64,000 nucleotides of DNA from positions 1 to 64,000 of the forward strand of contig CASFXV010000002.1 in NCBI GenBank assembly GCA_949298795.1. The letters run 5' to 3'. The notes under the pieces are model-generated. The model ran no database searches. It had not been told where the DNA came from and was given only the letters and a program-made list of their open reading frames with translations. Shown here piece after piece: positions 7,962-20,050 of the stretch (position 1 is the first letter of the stretch; each line of letters opens with the position of its first letter). Both the position numbers and the translations under genes were made by a program. The stretch comes from an uncultured bacterium. Lineage in GTDB: Bacteria; Elusimicrobiota; Elusimicrobia; Elusimicrobiales; Elusimicrobiaceae.

Positions 7962-10331
7962 ATGTGGTATGGAATTGCGGCCCTGAGACCGTTTGAACAA
8001 TATGCCTTGTTTGGCGTTTTGTTTATTGCGGTGTTAGGGCTTTTGTACGCTTGGTTCCTGCGCAGACAAGTACTGCACGAGGACGCCGGCACCCCCGAAA
8101 TGCAAAAAGTATGGGGCGCCATACGGGAAGGCGCTAACGCCTACCTGAAAAGACAATTAAAAACCATATTGCCGCTGATCGGGTTGCTGACGGTTTGTTT
8201 GTTCCTGTCCGTATACATTGTGCCCGTATCGGCCGATTCTATGGAACGCTTTGCCGGGTTATCCCCCGAAAAAGTCAAACTGATTGCCGCTTTCGGCCGC
8301 GCTGGGGCTTTTATTTTAGGCGCGGTGTTTTCTTTATTAGTGGGCCAGTTTGGTATGCGTATTGCGGTGGACGCTAACGTGCGTGTGGCGGCCGCTTCCA
8401 AACGCAGCTTTGGGGACGCATTAAAAATTGCTTACCGCGCGGGCACCGTAACCGGTATGTTGACCGACGGACTGGGCTTGTTTGGCGGCACCATTATTTT
8501 TATCATCTTCGGCATCGCCGCGCCGGACGCCTTGCTGGGCTTTGGTTTTGGCGGCACGCTGCTGGCGCTGTTTATGCGCGTAGGCGGCGGCATTTACACC
8601 AAAGCGGCTGACGTAGGGGCAGACCTCGTAGGCAAAGTGGAAGCAGGCATTCCGGAAGACGATCCCCGCAACCCCGCCGTAGTGGCTGACTTAGTGGGCG
8701 ACAACGTGGGTGACTGCGCCGGTATGGCCGCAGATATTTTTGAATCTTACGAAGTGACCATCGTTTCCGGCTTAATCTTAGGTATTTCTTTATGGAGAAT
8801 TACCGGCCACCACGAATGGATTGTTTACCCGCTTTTGGTGCGCGGCATTGGGGTATTGTGCTCCATCATCGGCACCTACGCGGTGAAAGATTCCAAACGC
8901 TCTGCCGGCAACGCCATGAAGGCTATCTTTAAAGGCTATACCATTTCCGCCGTTATCTCCGTGGCTATTTTCGGCGTACTGGCTTACTATTATATGACCG
9001 AAGTGCCCGGCGGCTGGTGGAGACCTTTTGCCGCCACCACCATCGGCATTATTTTAGCCATTACCATAGACCGCTTGACCGAATATTTCACCGGTACGGA
9101 TAAAAAACCCGTGCAGGAAATTAAAAAATCCACCGCCACCGGGTCCGCTACCACCATTCTTTCCGGTATTGCGGTAGGGTTTGAATCGGCCGTGTGGAGC
9201 ACCTTGGTCATTGCGGGCGCCATTTTCCTGTCTGTAATGATTTTCGGCACCATTGACGGCTTGGCCGCGGCGGAGAAATTCACCTTTATCCTCTACGGCG
9301 TAGCCATGACGGGTATTGGTATGTTAACCCTGACCGGCAACAACGTGGCGATGGACTCCTTCGGCCCGATTGCCGACAACGCCAACGGCATTGGTGAAAT
9401 GGCCTGGCACGGCAAAGAAGACGAAGAAACCAAAAAAGCCCGCCAAATCATGGCGGATTTGGACGGCGTGGGCAACACCACCAAAGCCATTACCAAAGGG
9501 GTGGCTATCGGTTCGGCCGTTATTGCGGCGGTGGCTTTGTTTGCCTCTTATATGGTGGACGTAAGCAACGTACAAAAATTGCTTAACGACGCTTGGGCCC
9601 AAGCCGGGGAAGGCAAAGCCCTTACGCTTTTATCCCAGGTGGGAATCGTCGTGTCAGACCCCACGGTGTTTGTGGGCATGCTCATCGGCGGCGCGCTGCC
9701 GTGGCTGTTCTCTTCCTTTGCCATTAACGCGGTAAGCCGCGCGGCGGCGCTGATTGTGGAAGAAGTACGCCGCCAGTTTAAAGGCGGGGTATTGGAAGGA
9801 AAAGCCAAACCCGATTATACCAACGCCGTAAACATTTCCACCGTGGCCGCGCAAAAAGAATTAATTGTACTGGCCGTGCTGGGCATTGTGTCCCCCATTG
9901 TGGTGGGGCTTGCCTTTGGGGTGGAAGCCTTGGGCGGTTTCCTGGCGGGTATTATCATATCCGGGCAGTTGCTGGCGGTGTTTATGTCCAACGCCGGCGG
10001 CGCGTGGGATAACGCCAAAAAAGTGGTGGAAGACGAACCCAGCGATATTGCCGCCAACACCGGCAAAGGGTCCGAACGCCACAAAGCCAGCGTGGTGGGC
10101 GACACCGTGGGTGACCCCTTAAAAGACACCGCCGGCCCCGCCGTAAACCCGCTGATTAAAGTAGTAAACATGGTGGCCGTTATCGTGGCGCCCATTGTGG
10201 TAAACTACCACAATGATTTCACCCCGCTTGGCAAAGTGGGTTGGTTAGTGGTTATTGTGCTGTTAGCGGTACTGAGCTGGGCCATTTTATCCAGCAAAAA
10301 ACCCGCGCAGGACTTAACTGCCAAAAAATAA
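7962..10331 (+). CDS. hppA: Membrane-bound proton-translocating pyrophosphatase, K+-independent type
   Basis: Couples hydrolysis of pyrophosphate to ion pumping across the inner membrane (about 16 helices). The length of 789 is slightly above the usual 650-770. The substrate-binding segment is complete: KAADVGADLVGKVE, then EDDPRNPAVVADLVGDNVGD, with the later DTVGDPLKDTAGP. The motif GNTTKAIT has Lys508 and Thr511 where K+-dependent enzymes have Ala and Gly, which is the established signature of K+-independent H+-pumping forms. It has a strong ribosome site (AAAAGGAG), is monocistronic and ends at a strong terminator. It would recover energy from pyrophosphate made in biosynthesis. Confidence 0.96.
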   Translation: MWYGIAALRPFEQYALFGVLFIAVLGLLYAWFLRRQVLHEDAGTPEMQKVWGAIREGANAYLKRQLKTILPLIGLLTVCLFLSVYIVPVSADSMERFAGLSPEKVKLIAAFGRAGAFILGAVFSLLVGQFGMRIAVDANVRVAAASKRSFGDALKIAYRAGTVTGMLTDGLGLFGGTIIFIIFGIAAPDALLGFGFGGTLLALFMRVGGGIYTKAADVGADLVGKVEAGIPEDDPRNPAVVADLVGDNVGDCAGMAADIFESYEVTIVSGLILGISLWRITGHHEWIVYPLLVRGIGVLCSIIGTYAVKDSKRSAGNAMKAIFKGYTISAVISVAIFGVLAYYYMTEVPGGWWRPFAATTIGIILAITIDRLTEYFTGTDKKPVQEIKKSTATGSATTILSGIAVGFESAVWSTLVIAGAIFLSVMIFGTIDGLAAAEKFTFILYGVAMTGIGMLTLTGNNVAMDSFGPIADNANGIGEMAWHGKEDEETKKARQIMADLDGVGNTTKAITKGVAIGSAVIAAVALFASYMVDVSNVQKLLNDAWAQAGEGKALTLLSQVGIVVSDPTVFVGMLIGGALPWLFSSFAINAVSRAAALIVEEVRRQFKGGVLEGKAKPDYTNAVNISTVAAQKELIVLAVLGIVSPIVVGLAFGVEALGGFLAGIIISGQLLAVFMSNAGGAWDNAKKVVEDEPSDIAANTGKGSERHKASVVGDTVGDPLKDTAGPAVNPLIKVVNMVAVIVAPIVVNYHNDFTPLGKVGWLVVIVLLAVLSWAILSSKKPAQDLTAKK

Positions 10332-10802: not shown

Positions 10803-10873
10803 ATTCCTCCTTTTTCTGCCAAAATTATAGCAAATACCCAAATGTTTTTGATAATATGGATAAAAGAGGTCAA

Positions 10874-11749
10874 ATGATGGGGATTATTATTTTCACGTCT
10901 TTCCTGGTACTGGTAACGGGGCTTATCCTGCTGGGCAATACCCGGTCCGCCCGCATGCGCCGCTACGCCAAGCGCAACCACGCCCAATTTGACCGGCACC
11001 GCAGTTCCCTAACCACCCCGCTAAGCGCCGGGAAGCTGGAAATATTAAAAGAATATTTTCCCTTATTTCGCCACGTGATGACGTTTGTGGACAACTTGGC
11101 CTTTATGCGCTTGGCCGACGCGGAAATCTATAAAGACGAAAGCCCTAACGCCAAACCCGTTTGTGTAACCTTGTTTACGGCTGAATTTAGAAACCGCAGT
11201 TTTCCCATATTAAAAATAGCGCCGCTGGGCTCCCCTTTTTACGCTTCCCAATACATGACGGTAAAAACCAATATCCCGGAAATTGACCGCAATTACCACA
11301 TCAGCGCGCCCAACCAGGCGGCCGGCCTGCTTTTTACCCCCTATTTAAAAGGACTGTTAAAAACCCGGGATAACATTTACTTGGAAGTAAATGACAATGC
11401 TTTTTTATACCACGAAAACCGCCTGCAAACAATAGAAGATTTGGAAAATTTCCACTGCCGGGCCGCCCAGCTTTTGGCGGAGTTTGGCAATACCATGATT
11501 AATTTAGACAAACCCGGCGCAGCCACCATAAACGCCGCCGTAAAGGCGGCCCCAAAGCCCAAGGCGCCGTTCTCTGACGAAGAATTTAACGCCAAAGCCC
11601 AGGCCATGCTTTCCGTTATGTGCCCCAAAGAAATTGCCCGCACCCACGGCAGCGCCAGTTTGCGCGGTTTTTGGGGCATTATTTTGCTGGTGCTGCTGTT
11701 AGCTATCCCGGTGGTAGGATGGCTTTTATTAAAAAATTTCCCCCATTAA
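10874..11749 (+). CDS. Conserved hypothetical membrane protein with helices at both ends
   Basis: 291 residues from the ATG at 10874, preferred over 10856 because AGAGG lies just upstream and a GATAAT box ends at 10855. One helix is near the N-terminus (MMGIIIFTSFLVLVTGLILL) and one at the C-terminus (FWGIILLVLLLAIPVVGWLLL). The ~230-residue soluble middle resembles no family I recognise. It contains FDRHRSSL and FHCRAAQLLAEF and is probably cytoplasmic or membrane-peripheral. It is monocistronic and closed by a terminator. Confidence 0.6.
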   Translation: MMGIIIFTSFLVLVTGLILLGNTRSARMRRYAKRNHAQFDRHRSSLTTPLSAGKLEILKEYFPLFRHVMTFVDNLAFMRLADAEIYKDESPNAKPVCVTLFTAEFRNRSFPILKIAPLGSPFYASQYMTVKTNIPEIDRNYHISAPNQAAGLLFTPYLKGLLKTRDNIYLEVNDNAFLYHENRLQTIEDLENFHCRAAQLLAEFGNTMINLDKPGAATINAAVKAAPKPKAPFSDEEFNAKAQAMLSVMCPKEIARTHGSASLRGFWGIILLVLLLAIPVVGWLLLKNFPH

Positions 11750-13865: not shown

Positions 13866-13917
13866 ATTATAGAAAATATGGAACCGTTCCCTGCCTAAAC
13901 GCGTAATTTCCTATAAT
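13866..13917. promoter_or_regulatory. Paired divergent leaderless promoters (M3 peptidase and ispH)
   Basis: On the minus strand TATAAT (13871-13866) is followed by AACAAT and the peptidase ATG. On the plus strand TATAAT (13912-13917) is followed by ATATAT and the ispH ATG. Transcription normally begins about seven bases after the -10 box, which is the A of each ATG. Neither gene has a Shine-Dalgarno sequence. The -35 regions are poor matches. Confidence 0.65.
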
Positions 13918-13923
13918 ATATAT

Positions 13924-15615
13924 ATGGATAAAGAACAAGACGTTATCGTAGCCAAAAGCGCGGGGTTCTGCCCCGGCGTAAAACGCGCCATAGATAAAGT
14001 GCTGGAGCTGGAAGCCGCCGGCAAAAAACCCATTTACACCATTGGTCCGCTGATACACAACAAACAAGTAACCGATATGCTGGCCGCCAAGCAGATTACT
14101 TCCATAGACAAGCCGCAGGAAGCGCAAGACAAATCCGGCGTATTGGTTATCCGCGCGCACGGCATTACGCCGCAGTTTCAACAAGAAATTGAATCCTGCG
14201 GCATGGAAGTGGTGGACGCCACCTGCCCGCTGGTAAAACGGGCGCATGACGTTATCTCCCAATACGCCAAACAAGGCTATGATACCGTAATTGTGGGGGA
14301 TGGAGGACACGCGGAAGTAATCGGCCTGTTGGGTTATACCCAAGGGCGCGGCACCGTGGTATCCGGCCCGGAAGAAGCCCAAAAACTTCCCCCTTTTAAG
14401 AAAGTAAACGTAGTATCCCAAACCACGCAAAAAGAAAGTGTTTTTTATCAGACCGCCCAAATTATTAAAGACAAAGCGGACGAATGCCAAATATCCAACA
14501 CCATCTGCCAACCCACCAAAGACCGCCAAAAAGAAACGGTGGAACTGGCCAAAAATGCGGATTTGGTCATTGTGGTGGGCGGCAAACACAGCGCAAACAC
14601 CGCGCGCCTGGCCCTGCTGTGCCGCGGCCTAGCCCCGCAGGTGCTGCACATAGAAACCGAAAGCGAACTGCAGCCCGAACAAGTGCTGCGCGCCAAACAA
14701 ATATTTATTACAGCCGGGGCCTCCACCCCCAACTGGGTGATAGACAAAGTGGCTAATTGGGTGCGCCAAACCCGCCAGACACACAACCGTTTTTCTTTGC
14801 CCACTTTCTTTTATAACGGGTGGAAGTTCTTTGTAAAATACTCTTTTTACACCGCGTTCGCGGCAATGGCTTTGGCTTATGTTTGTATGAAGTTGCAAGG
14901 GGTGCGCACGGACTGGAAGTTATTATGGTTTGCGTGGTTGTTTGTGTTTGGGTTAACTTCCGTTAACCACGCGGCGGAGCAAGCCCCCACCCGCGTAAGG
15001 AATTTGTCTTACACCTTGGGTTTTACCGCCTGTGCGGGGGCGTTGGTATTATCGGCCTTTACCGGCTGGCAGGTGTTGCTGTTGGCGGCCATCTTTTTAG
15101 CGGCGGGGATTTTTTACCCGTTTAGGCATATACTGCACTCCAAGATAGCCTCTTTCCCCGGCACTAAAGACGTTGCCACCGCGCTGGGCTGGGCGTTTGC
15201 CTGCGCCTGGCTGCCCGCCTATGCCCATGGGGTGCCTTTTCATAAAGCGGCGTATTTGGCCGTATTCTATGCGGGGCTGTTGGTGTTTACGCGCTCAGTC
15301 ACGCTGGGGTTTTCTTCCGCCAATAAAGATTTAATGGTAGGCAAGGAAAGCTTCTACAAAGCATTTGGCATGACCGCCACCAAATGGGCCGTTACGTTTA
15401 TTTTAACCGCGCTTACCGGCGCACTGGTTGCTTTATGGTTTATGCCGTGGAAACCGCTGCTGACGGGTATGCTTCTTATTGGGAACGTATACACGGTTTT
15501 TATTGTAATATATTATTATAGCCATGTGACGGCCCGCAATATCAAGCAAGAAACTTTAATTGACGGCCAATTCTTTATTTTATGGCTGTTTTGTTACCTG
15601 ACCAAATTATTCTAA
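13924..15615 (+). CDS. ispH: IspH (HMBPP reductase) fused to a UbiA-like membrane domain
   Basis: Residues 1-285 are a complete 4-hydroxy-3-methylbut-2-enyl diphosphate reductase, the last step of the MEP isoprenoid pathway. It has the three cluster cysteines Cys16 (FCPGV), Cys101 (ATCPLV) and Cys195 (NTICQPT), His45, His79 and His129, and the catalytic Glu131. Residues ~300-563 form seven or eight membrane helices that resemble UbiA-type prenyltransferases, with helix spacing and a loop reading NKDLMVGKES where UbiA has DxxxD. The Asp-rich Mg2+ motifs are degenerate (SVNHAAEQ in place of NDxxD). The fusion would tether isoprenoid precursor formation to the membrane, or pair it with prenyl transfer; this is inference. 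First gene of ispH-pfkA-rlmB. Confidence 0.88.
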   Translation: MDKEQDVIVAKSAGFCPGVKRAIDKVLELEAAGKKPIYTIGPLIHNKQVTDMLAAKQITSIDKPQEAQDKSGVLVIRAHGITPQFQQEIESCGMEVVDATCPLVKRAHDVISQYAKQGYDTVIVGDGGHAEVIGLLGYTQGRGTVVSGPEEAQKLPPFKKVNVVSQTTQKESVFYQTAQIIKDKADECQISNTICQPTKDRQKETVELAKNADLVIVVGGKHSANTARLALLCRGLAPQVLHIETESELQPEQVLRAKQIFITAGASTPNWVIDKVANWVRQTRQTHNRFSLPTFFYNGWKFFVKYSFYTAFAAMALAYVCMKLQGVRTDWKLLWFAWLFVFGLTSVNHAAEQAPTRVRNLSYTLGFTACAGALVLSAFTGWQVLLLAAIFLAAGIFYPFRHILHSKIASFPGTKDVATALGWAFACAWLPAYAHGVPFHKAAYLAVFYAGLLVFTRSVTLGFSSANKDLMVGKESFYKAFGMTATKWAVTFILTALTGALVALWFMPWKPLLTGMLLIGNVYTVFIVIYYYSHVTARNIKQETLIDGQFFILWLFCYLTKLF

Positions 15616-15633: not shown

Positions 15634-16734
15634 ATGACGATTAAAAAAATTGGTATTCTGACCGCCGGCGGAGATTGCCCCGGCTTAAACGCCGTGGTGC
15701 GCGCCGTAAGCAAAAACGCCCTGCAGCACGGCATTGAAGTATTGGGCTTTAAAAACGGTTTTGACGGCTTGGTACGCAATGAGTTTGTGCATATTACCAA
15801 CGATTTGGTATCCGGCATTTTAACCTTAGGCGGCACCATTTTGGGAAGCAGCAACATCGCCAATCCTTTTAAGTATACGCTGGCGCCGTTTGGCTCGGCC
15901 GAAAACCCGGCGGATTTATCCGGCGCGGCCTTGCATAATTTTAAAGAAAACCAGCTGGACGCGCTGATCACCATCGGCGGGGACGGCACGCTGCATATGT
16001 CCCAGCAATTTGTAGATTTGGGTATGCCCATTGTGGCCGTACCCAAAACCATTGATAATGACCTCTCCGCCACGGACCAAACATTCGGGTTTGATTCCGC
16101 CCTTTCTATTGCCACCGAAGCCATAGACCGCCTGCACACCACGGCCCAAAGCCACCACCGCGTGATGATTGTGGAAACCATGGGCCGCTACGCCGGGTGG
16201 ATAGCGCTTCGCTCCGCCATTGCAGGCGGCGGGGACGTGGTGCTTATACCGGAAATCCCGTATAATGACGACGTAATCGCCAACTATATTTTAGAACGCC
16301 GCAGCCGCGGCAAGACATTCAGCATTGTGGTAGCGGCGGAAGGTGCCAAAAACGAAGCGGGCGAACAAGCCGTCACCCGCACCGTAGCCGGCAGTACGGA
16401 CCCGGTGCGCTTGGGCGGAATCGCATACAAATTAAGCCAAATGATTGAAGAAAAAACCAAAATTGAATCCCGCGCCTGCGTACTGGGGCACACCCAACGC
16501 GGGGGCACCCCCACCGCTTTTGACCGCTGGCTTTCCACCCTGTACGGCACCAAAGCGCTGGATATGGTACTGGAAGGGAAATTTGGTTATATGGCCAGCC
16601 TGCGGGCGTTCCAAATGCAGGAAGTAAAAATTGCGGATGCGATTTCCAAATTAAAACGCGTTGACCCCTACGGGGCAGAAGTAAAAGCCGCGCTGGAAGT
16701 GGGCATGAGCTTTGGCTCGGCTGACATCGGCTAA
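15634..16734 (+). CDS. pfkA: 6-phosphofructokinase with mixed phosphoryl-donor signature
   Basis: Phosphorylates fructose 6-phosphate, the committed step of glycolysis. The group A fold is clear: GGDCPGLNAVVR, TIGGDGTLHM, PKTIDNDL, GRYAGWIA and GHTQRGG. Gly at the GGDG position (104 in E. coli numbering) points to ATP as donor, while Lys in PKTIDND (position 124) is the residue usually seen in pyrophosphate-dependent enzymes. This Gly/Lys pair is known from some ATP-dependent actinobacterial-type enzymes, so ATP is favoured but pyrophosphate is not excluded. It lies 18 bases after ispH, with AAGGGG upstream of the ATG. Confidence 0.93.
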   Translation: MTIKKIGILTAGGDCPGLNAVVRAVSKNALQHGIEVLGFKNGFDGLVRNEFVHITNDLVSGILTLGGTILGSSNIANPFKYTLAPFGSAENPADLSGAALHNFKENQLDALITIGGDGTLHMSQQFVDLGMPIVAVPKTIDNDLSATDQTFGFDSALSIATEAIDRLHTTAQSHHRVMIVETMGRYAGWIALRSAIAGGGDVVLIPEIPYNDDVIANYILERRSRGKTFSIVVAAEGAKNEAGEQAVTRTVAGSTDPVRLGGIAYKLSQMIEEKTKIESRACVLGHTQRGGTPTAFDRWLSTLYGTKALDMVLEGKFGYMASLRAFQMQEVKIADAISKLKRVDPYGAEVKAALEVGMSFGSADIG

Positions 16735-16743
16735 GGAGAAAAA

Positions 16744-17493
16744 ATGAACGAAGCTTTAGACATTATTTACGGCATTCACCCGGTTATGGAAGCGCTGCGC
16801 AGCAAAAAGCGCAACGTCACCCAGCTGTTTGTGACCGACGGGAAAGCCGGGCACCGCCAAGTGGAAGAAATCATCCGTTTAGCCAAACGCAATAACGTAA
16901 AAGTGGACCGCATAGAACCCCGCGTATTGGATAAGCTGACCCACGGCGCCAACCACCAAGGCGTGCTGGCTAAAATCCAGCCCATTAAATTAATGAAACT
17001 TTCCACCGCGCTGTATGAATCAGACGGAAATAAAAAAGACCTTTGGCTGGCCGTAGATGAAATGACGGACCCGCAAAACCTGGGGGCCATTATCCGCAGT
17101 GCGGCGTGTTTGGGCTTTTCCACCATTATTTTGCCCCAGCGGCGCACGGTGGGCATTACACCGGCGGTATACCGTGTGGCCTGCGGCGCGATTGAAAACA
17201 TTAATATTGTGGAAGTAGCCAACTTAAACACCGCGCTCATTGACTTGAAAGAAGAAGGTTTTTGGGTATATGGGGCGGATATGGAAGGGCAGTCCATCAC
17301 GGAAACGGACTACGCCTCCCCCGCCGTGCTGGTAATTGGAAGCGAAGGATTTGGCATACGGGAAAAAACGGCCGAAAATTGCGACCAAATCATCTCCATT
17401 CCGCAAAAAGGCGGAGTGGAAAGCTTAAACGCTTCCGCCGCGGCCAGTATTATCATGTACGACATGATGGCTAAAGTACAGCTAAAAAAATAA
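16744..17493 (+). CDS. rlmB: 23S rRNA (guanosine-2'-O-)-methyltransferase RlmB / SpoU family
   Basis: 2'-O-ribose methyltransferase of the trefoil-knot (SPOUT) class. It has an N-terminal L30e-like RNA-binding domain (residues 1-80, IYGIHPVMEALRSKKR) and a C-terminal SPOUT domain with the three motifs DPQNLGAIIRSA, VIGSEGFGIR and IPQKGGVESLNASAAASI. The length of 249 matches RlmB. A strong AAGGAG site and 9-base spacing place it in the ispH-pfkA operon. A terminator follows. Confidence 0.93.
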   Translation: MNEALDIIYGIHPVMEALRSKKRNVTQLFVTDGKAGHRQVEEIIRLAKRNNVKVDRIEPRVLDKLTHGANHQGVLAKIQPIKLMKLSTALYESDGNKKDLWLAVDEMTDPQNLGAIIRSAACLGFSTIILPQRRTVGITPAVYRVACGAIENINIVEVANLNTALIDLKEEGFWVYGADMEGQSITETDYASPAVLVIGSEGFGIREKTAENCDQIISIPQKGGVESLNASAAASIIMYDMMAKVQLKK

Positions 17494-19153: not shown

Positions 19154-20050
19154 ATGAGAAAATTATTTTTACTTTTAACCTTAACCGCTTTTCCCTCTTT
19201 TATGGGACAGGCAAAAACGTTGGACGCAAGAGCGTCTTATTTATGGTCTTCCGATAAGAACCAAGCCATGGCTTCCTTATCCGTAGCGCCCACTTATAAT
19301 ACACGGGCCAGCCTAGTGGCGCGCTATGTGAAAGACATGCAGGATTATTCTTTCGGCCGTTTAAAAGACCCTATTTATTCCGTCTATCTTCCGCTGATCT
19401 TTCAGCTTGAATTATTAGATATTGAACTGACCCCGTTTTATTATTTTAAACACAATGCCGATAACCCTGCCTATCAAGACGCCTATGCCTACGGCGGCAC
19501 TTTTGCATTAACCATGTTAATGGAAAATGACCAAGTAAACGACATTTACACCCGCGCGCGTTTGGGCGCCACTTACGCGCACCAACAAGGCACCTTATTT
19601 ACTAAGGACGCCGCACCGGAAAACACAGACTATGCCCAAGTGGCATATTTCTTACAGTTAAGCCACAGCATGTTCCAAACCTACCGGTTGGAAGCCACCG
19701 GGGCGGCCTTTCAATATCCGGACGGGATTACCGGCGTTACCGCTTTTCGCGGGGTATTAAACCAACAAGATTTAGTGGCCCTGCAAACCCTGGACATTAC
19801 GCGCGATTTGCGCAAATACGCTTTAGGCGGGCGCTTTGTACGTATGTGGGCGGAGTCAGGCTCTACATTATATATCGGCTATTCTTTTACCGAAAATTAC
19901 ACGGCCGACCCGGACCATTCTTTTATTATCGGCAATTCGTTCCCTCTTGTGAAAAACGTATTTTTTGACATGGCCTACAACCATATAGAAACAACCAGCC
20001 ACAAAAATAAAAGAGACATCTTTTATTTAGGGTTTGGAACCTCATTCTAG
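19154..20050 (+). CDS. Predicted outer-membrane beta-barrel protein, unknown function
   Basis: 298 residues with signal peptide RKLFLLLTLTAFPSFMGQA. The rest is rich in alternating aromatic and polar residues (RASLVARYVKDM, LTPFYYFKHN, FYLGFGTSF) and ends in Phe, as expected for a barrel inserted by BamA. I do not recognise the family. The ATG follows TAAATT plus six bases with no ribosome site, like the other leaderless starts in this window. The next gene, a sensor kinase, starts 9 bases downstream, so they are probably co-transcribed. Confidence 0.6.
   Translation: MRKLFLLLTLTAFPSFMGQAKTLDARASYLWSSDKNQAMASLSVAPTYNTRASLVARYVKDMQDYSFGRLKDPIYSVYLPLIFQLELLDIELTPFYYFKHNADNPAYQDAYAYGGTFALTMLMENDQVNDIYTRARLGATYAHQQGTLFTKDAAPENTDYAQVAYFLQLSHSMFQTYRLEATGAAFQYPDGITGVTAFRGVLNQQDLVALQTLDITRDLRKYALGGRFVRMWAESGSTLYIGYSFTENYTADPDHSFIIGNSFPLVKNVFFDMAYNHIETTSHKNKRDIFYLGFGTSF

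Follow-up and report, generated by a model that had tools for sequence, protein, structure and literature searches.

The locus analysed here raises the question of why IspH, the enzyme that completes the synthesis of isoprenoid precursors, should continue in the same polypeptide into a membrane domain resembling the UbiA prenyltransferases, and what such a domain could still be doing there. The gene lies in a stretch of 64,000 nucleotides (the window) from an uncultured member of the Elusimicrobiaceae. A first-pass annotation had described it as a full IspH, with three Fe-S cysteines and the catalytic Glu, followed by seven or eight helices with broken Asp-rich motifs. The IspH part of that description holds in full: Pfam LYTB covers residues 7-280 (E 3.9e-87, 292 bits against a cut-off of 24.5), the NCBIfam model TIGR00216 reaches 272 bits against a cut-off of 187.85, the predicted IspH half superposes on E. 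coli IspH with a Z of 31, and C16, C101, C195 and E131 are invariant in an alignment of 23 members. Since this half is complete by profiles and model and is the only IspH match of the genome (a whole-genome search matched no second one), it is very probably functional. A missed stop between the halves was also looked for, but the reading frame runs through 563 codons (13924-15615, plus strand) without an internal stop, which puts both halves in one chain (Table 1). Moreover, an assembly artefact was ruled out: dozens of genomes assembled independently encode the same full-length fusion, one of them a 1.64-Mb genome of the same family on a single contig.

Table 1. Features of the fusion gene and its conserved downstream neighbours, in window positions.
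Feature	Position	Strand	Basis
ispH-ubiA-like fusion gene, 563 aa	13924..15615	+	Single open frame; sole IspH match of the genome
IspH (LytB) domain, residues 1-285; Fe-S C16, C101, C195; catalytic E131	13924..14778	+	Pfam, TIGR00216, alignment, structure match
Predicted UbiA-fold membrane domain, residues ~292-563; nine long helices preceded by an amphipathic one (292-305)	14797..15612	+	AlphaFold models, structure matches; PF01040 sub-threshold
Motif I remnant, residues 348-352; N348, E352 replacing the first Asp; end of second long helix	14965..14979	+	Count over 70 domains; same place as the AfUbiA motif (PMC4106721)
Y398, proposed counterpart of the Tyr found in the active site of nearly all UbiA proteins (AfUbiA Y139)	15115..15117	+	69/70; lines up with the UbiA Tyr
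Motif II remnant, residues 465-469; S465 replacing the first Asp, invariant D469	15316..15330	+	Count over 70 domains
Phosphofructokinase (pfk) gene, directly downstream; adjacent to ispH in the family whether fused or not; outside the fusion	15634..16734	+	Conserved locus
SpoU-type rRNA methyltransferase gene, second conserved downstream neighbour; outside the fusion	16744..17493	+	Conserved locus

Two further observations concern the IspH part. Asp24 (window 13993-13995) is found in 77 of 79 fused proteins, and Glu takes its place in 17 of 39 unfused ones. On the minus strand, an antisense open frame of 240 aa (window 13867-14589) spans most of this part and is probably a mechanical by-product of codon usage.

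The C-terminal half is less readily named from its sequence. Pfam UbiA (PF01040) matches residues 364-534 with an E of 2.5e-4 and 20.9 bits; scores of 20.9-23.2 bits fall below the gathering score of 34.2, and at E up to 0.01 the profile matches 15 of 23 fusion members, the best at 1.1e-6. No UbiA came up when the domain profile was used for a sequence search of solved structures, and its scores against UbiA alignments of the same phylum, compared profile to profile, were too weak to name a parent UbiA subfamily. The evidence from predicted structure is stronger. AlphaFold models of the whole protein (mean pLDDT 86, pTM 0.68) and of the isolated domain (mean pLDDT 82, pTM 0.84) both show one N-terminal amphipathic helix followed by nine helices of membrane-spanning length, so that the first-pass annotation was right about membrane helices but counted too few of them; the pTM of the full-length model leaves the placement of the two halves relative to each other unsupported. 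The domain-alone model matches the UbiA of Aeropyrum (4od4; Z 18.7, 3.2 Å over 244 residues) and that of Archaeoglobus (4tq3; Z 17.7), with Z 17-18.7 to solved UbiA structures overall, and soluble prenyl synthases sharing this fold class rank behind (Z up to 15.1). A UbiA fold for this half is thus well supported by the model, as the first-pass annotation had supposed, and its proposal that the fusion would hold IspH at the membrane follows from the nine predicted helices.

The two Asp-rich motifs were assigned by position, each closing a long helix (the second for motif I, the sixth for motif II) just as they do in the Archaeoglobus enzyme (AfUbiA), and motif II also by a spacing (Asp, Ser/Thr at +7, Gly at +13) that, judged by eye, recurs in MenA- and UbiA-type proteins from this phylum. 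In 70 Elusimicrobiota copies of the domain, the canonical forms NDXXDXXXD (motif I) and DXXXD (motif II) both occur in 0/70, but "broken" tells only part of the story, since some of the key positions are kept. Motif I retains its Asn in 67/70 and has Glu at the first Asp (AfUbiA D72) in 60/70, and it no longer has its last Asp. No copy has the first Asp of motif II (AfUbiA D198), with S, H, A, Q or N standing in its place in 70/70, and the second (AfUbiA D202) persists as D469 in 70/70. The loop following motif I is also reduced, with about 4 residues in the model against more than 25 in AfUbiA. Around these remnants, a set of residues is conserved almost throughout: N348 (67/70), Y398 (69/70), K415 (69/70), D416 (68/70), R457 (70/70), E475 (69/70), K479 (68/70), E543 (69/70) and D547 (67/70). 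Y398 would correspond, by a weak profile alignment and its helix position, to the near-universal Tyr of helix 4, the residue that the UbiA family conserves most (PMC4106721).

Mutants of AfUbiA and of E. coli MenA help to read these replacements. In AfUbiA, changing N68, D72, R22 or K146 to Ala abolished GPP binding, and D198A and D202A weakened it 45- and 21-fold, respectively; E. coli MenA depends for its activity on the residues equivalent to N68, D72, D198 and D202, and mutating the D198 or D202 equivalent left no or almost no activity (PMC4106721). From this comparison of binding with activity mutants, loss of the first Asp of motif II would be expected to cost more to catalysis than to binding. 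With the Asn and last Asp kept, D72 changed to Glu and D198 lost, the pattern suggests, by analogy, that catalysis is lost or changed while some binding of prenyl diphosphates may remain. Because both defining motifs were examined and found absent, we do not file the domain as a UbiA prenyltransferase, but as a predicted UbiA fold that may still act on prenyl diphosphates.

A survey of IspH fusions, proposed in the first-pass annotation, found the domain in 82 of 294 Elusimicrobiota genomes: two families of the order carry it, and so do three genomes from two further families of the class. Except at contig breaks it shares its reading frame with IspH in every case, and no stand-alone copy was found in the 294 genomes, in plasmids or in viral contigs. 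One scan of assembled contigs yielded records of Elusimicrobiota and of unclassified MAGs only. Within the family of the window the gene order ispH-pfk-spoU is the same for fused and unfused ispH; the unfused genes stop right after the IspH domain, and tblastn found no remnants of the membrane domain beside them. The IspH tree calls for at least seven changes between the fused and unfused states, six of them forced by strongly supported branches. The simplest reading is an old fusion that was repeatedly lost, although lateral replacement of alleles may be an alternative. One genome from another family of the class (G223, locus L038) has two IspH matches, one of which is the fusion, a case of possible lateral transfer. 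Separately, the IspH of most other families of the same class (E ~1e-25 to 1e-44) is more distant than that of other classes of the phylum (E ~1e-44 to 1e-69), which suggests, at the level of sequence, a lateral replacement of ispH in one lineage. Elsewhere in the window, a membrane H+-pyrophosphatase (7962-10331) is encoded about 3.6 kb upstream of the fusion, and two neighbouring genes (10856-11749 and 19154-20050; 297 and 298 aa) have no Pfam match at E up to 1e-5.

Where the domain is present it is not decaying, as judged from dN/dS values of 0.03-0.17 in 16 close pairs, near the 0.03-0.14 of IspH in the same pairs: it is under purifying selection about as strong as that on IspH. The rates of IspH itself were compared with those of the neighbouring pfk. 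In the genus of the window, the mean ratio of IspH to pfk divergence is 1.18 in lineages without the domain versus 1.08 in those with it, and two loss clades of a second genus go in the same direction, the exception being one unfused genome (L214). A faster IspH after loss of the domain is what would be expected if the halves constrain each other, and the comparison, made among related species that are not independent, gives at most a hint of such coupling.

The first-pass annotation had also asked whether another UbiA or polyprenyl enzyme is missing from the genome. A genome search found no other UbiA match and one UppS match. For the trans-prenyl synthase profile PF00348 no match was found in the genome of the window (G000; noted with L244), an absence that most likely reflects a gap in the assembly, since such a match is present in nearly all relatives, including fused genomes and the 99%-identical G063. 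By the same distribution, the domain was rejected as a substitute for the trans-prenyl synthase. Most unfused close relatives in the family are without any UbiA match. Canonical UbiA-type enzymes are encoded separately in most genomes of the order's second family, and the motifs of several resemble those of MenA; for this reason the quinone enzyme of that family is unlikely to be the fused domain. In the rest of the class, none of the 570-600 aa open frames bearing UbiA matches that were checked contained an IspH. A second type of UbiA, with the motif NRAIDARIDAANPRTKDR, was seen in G106, G207 and G110 (unfused IspH) and also in one fused genome (G120), with L188, L201, L237 and L195 as the loci noted for it; a similarly strong match is present in G280 (unfused).

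We tentatively lean towards a reading in which the UbiA fold would tether IspH to the membrane and keep, next to it, a prenyl-diphosphate pocket whose catalysis is altered; for this pocket, binding or sensing is favoured over canonical transfer. A working IspH would be tethered at the cytoplasmic face of the membrane by a domain descended from a prenyltransferase, which would have lost most of the metal-binding Asp residues for prenyl transfer and kept pocket residues, namely N348 of motif I, the family Tyr Y398, D469 of motif II and new invariant charged residues. As these residues are kept, a prenyl diphosphate would most likely still be bound, and the domain, beside IspH, might hold it, hand it off or sense it rather than work as a canonical transferase. 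Clean loss in several lineages shows that IspH is workable without the domain, and this counts against the proposed role. A more specific form of it, a putative prenyl-diphosphate-binding pseudoenzyme fixed to IspH that would read or hold downstream isoprenoids and set the output of the last MEP step, we consider unlikely.

The same pocket residues, with Glu at the first Asp, would also suit an active prenyltransferase of the membrane whose metal site has changed, passing the DMAPP/IPP made by IspH, or a longer prenyl diphosphate, onto some acceptor, along the lines that Rao et al. suggested for the fusions of Desulfobacterales (PMC4746011). This is possible, if on the unlikely side, and the strong purifying selection, the constant company of IspH and the status of the domain as the only UbiA match of the genome all speak for it; judging from sequence, the Glu and the invariant last Asp could hold one metal ion, so that catalysis may persist. 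It has to face, however, the absence of the first Asp of motif II and of the last Asp of motif I, given the positions required in E. coli MenA (PMC4106721), as well as the shortened loop and a domain that is dispensable in many close relatives, most of them with no UbiA match at all. Motif loss and repeated dispensability, together with the nine-helix model, would sit comfortably with a plain membrane anchor, that is, an old UbiA fold that merely keeps IspH near other isoprenoid enzymes; some ten invariant or near-invariant polar and charged residues across an order-level family are nevertheless unexpected of an anchor, and we regard this reading as rather improbable.

IspH requires two external electrons, and the fusion would place it at the membrane, so the domain might let it draw them from a membrane donor, as the first-pass annotation had suggested. 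The genomes give this idea very little room: NQR2, RnfD and RnfE have no match across 90 genomes of the family of the window, by which an Rnf-type donor was rejected, and UbiA folds are not known to bind a redox cofactor. Even harder to credit is a chance or neutral fusion retained by drift; repeated loss would fit it, but the fusion is carried by two families of the order and the dN/dS values disfavour it.

The fusion had been presented in the first-pass annotation as if new, but this type of protein is already published: Rao et al. described in 2015 a set of 47 IspH-UbiA fusions, primarily from sulfate reducers of the Desulfobacterales, named the domain PT_UbiA_5, and proposed membrane localisation with a local supply of IPP/DMAPP, so that the suggestion of channelling is also theirs; the full-length protein could not be expressed in active form (PMC4746011). 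Their text makes no mention of Elusimicrobiota (PMC4746011), and a literature search for the term IspH-UbiA returned only that paper and a single one citing it. What is new here are the degenerate motifs and the natural series of presence and absence. IspH-UbiA fusions have stayed unexplained since 2015, and the Elusimicrobiota offer a natural experiment that the original report lacked, with close relatives that carry or lack the domain at one ispH-pfk locus. With catalytic motifs degenerate and the rest of the pocket kept, the choice between enzyme, sensor and anchor becomes directly testable.

Several known systems help to place this protein. IspH-RPS1 fusions likewise have IspH as the N-terminal half of a long fusion, but their C-terminal half consists of ribosomal S1 repeats, with no membrane domain. 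In eukaryotes, UBIAD1 is a UbiA-type protein physically coupled to an isoprenoid-supply reductase, HMG-CoA reductase; there, in contrast, two chains, the mevalonate pathway and control by protein degradation are involved, which makes it an analogy only. With AfUbiA (4tq3/4tq4) and ApUbiA (4od4/4od5) the domain would share the fold, the nine long helices, motifs I and II placed after helices 2 and 6, the conserved Asn and Tyr and the last Asp of motif II, and it departs from them in its unmatched Asp-rich motifs, short loop after motif I and Pfam score below cut-off. The closest parallel is found in the Desulfobacterales, anaerobes as well, where IspH is also N-terminal and a UbiA-like membrane domain C-terminal in one chain. 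Those fusions, however, carry two DXXXD motifs, intact by the description of the paper, in genomes that have a separate UbiA/MenA (PMC4746011), whereas the Elusimicrobiota domains have lost them in 70/70 and the genome of the window has the fused domain as its one UbiA match.
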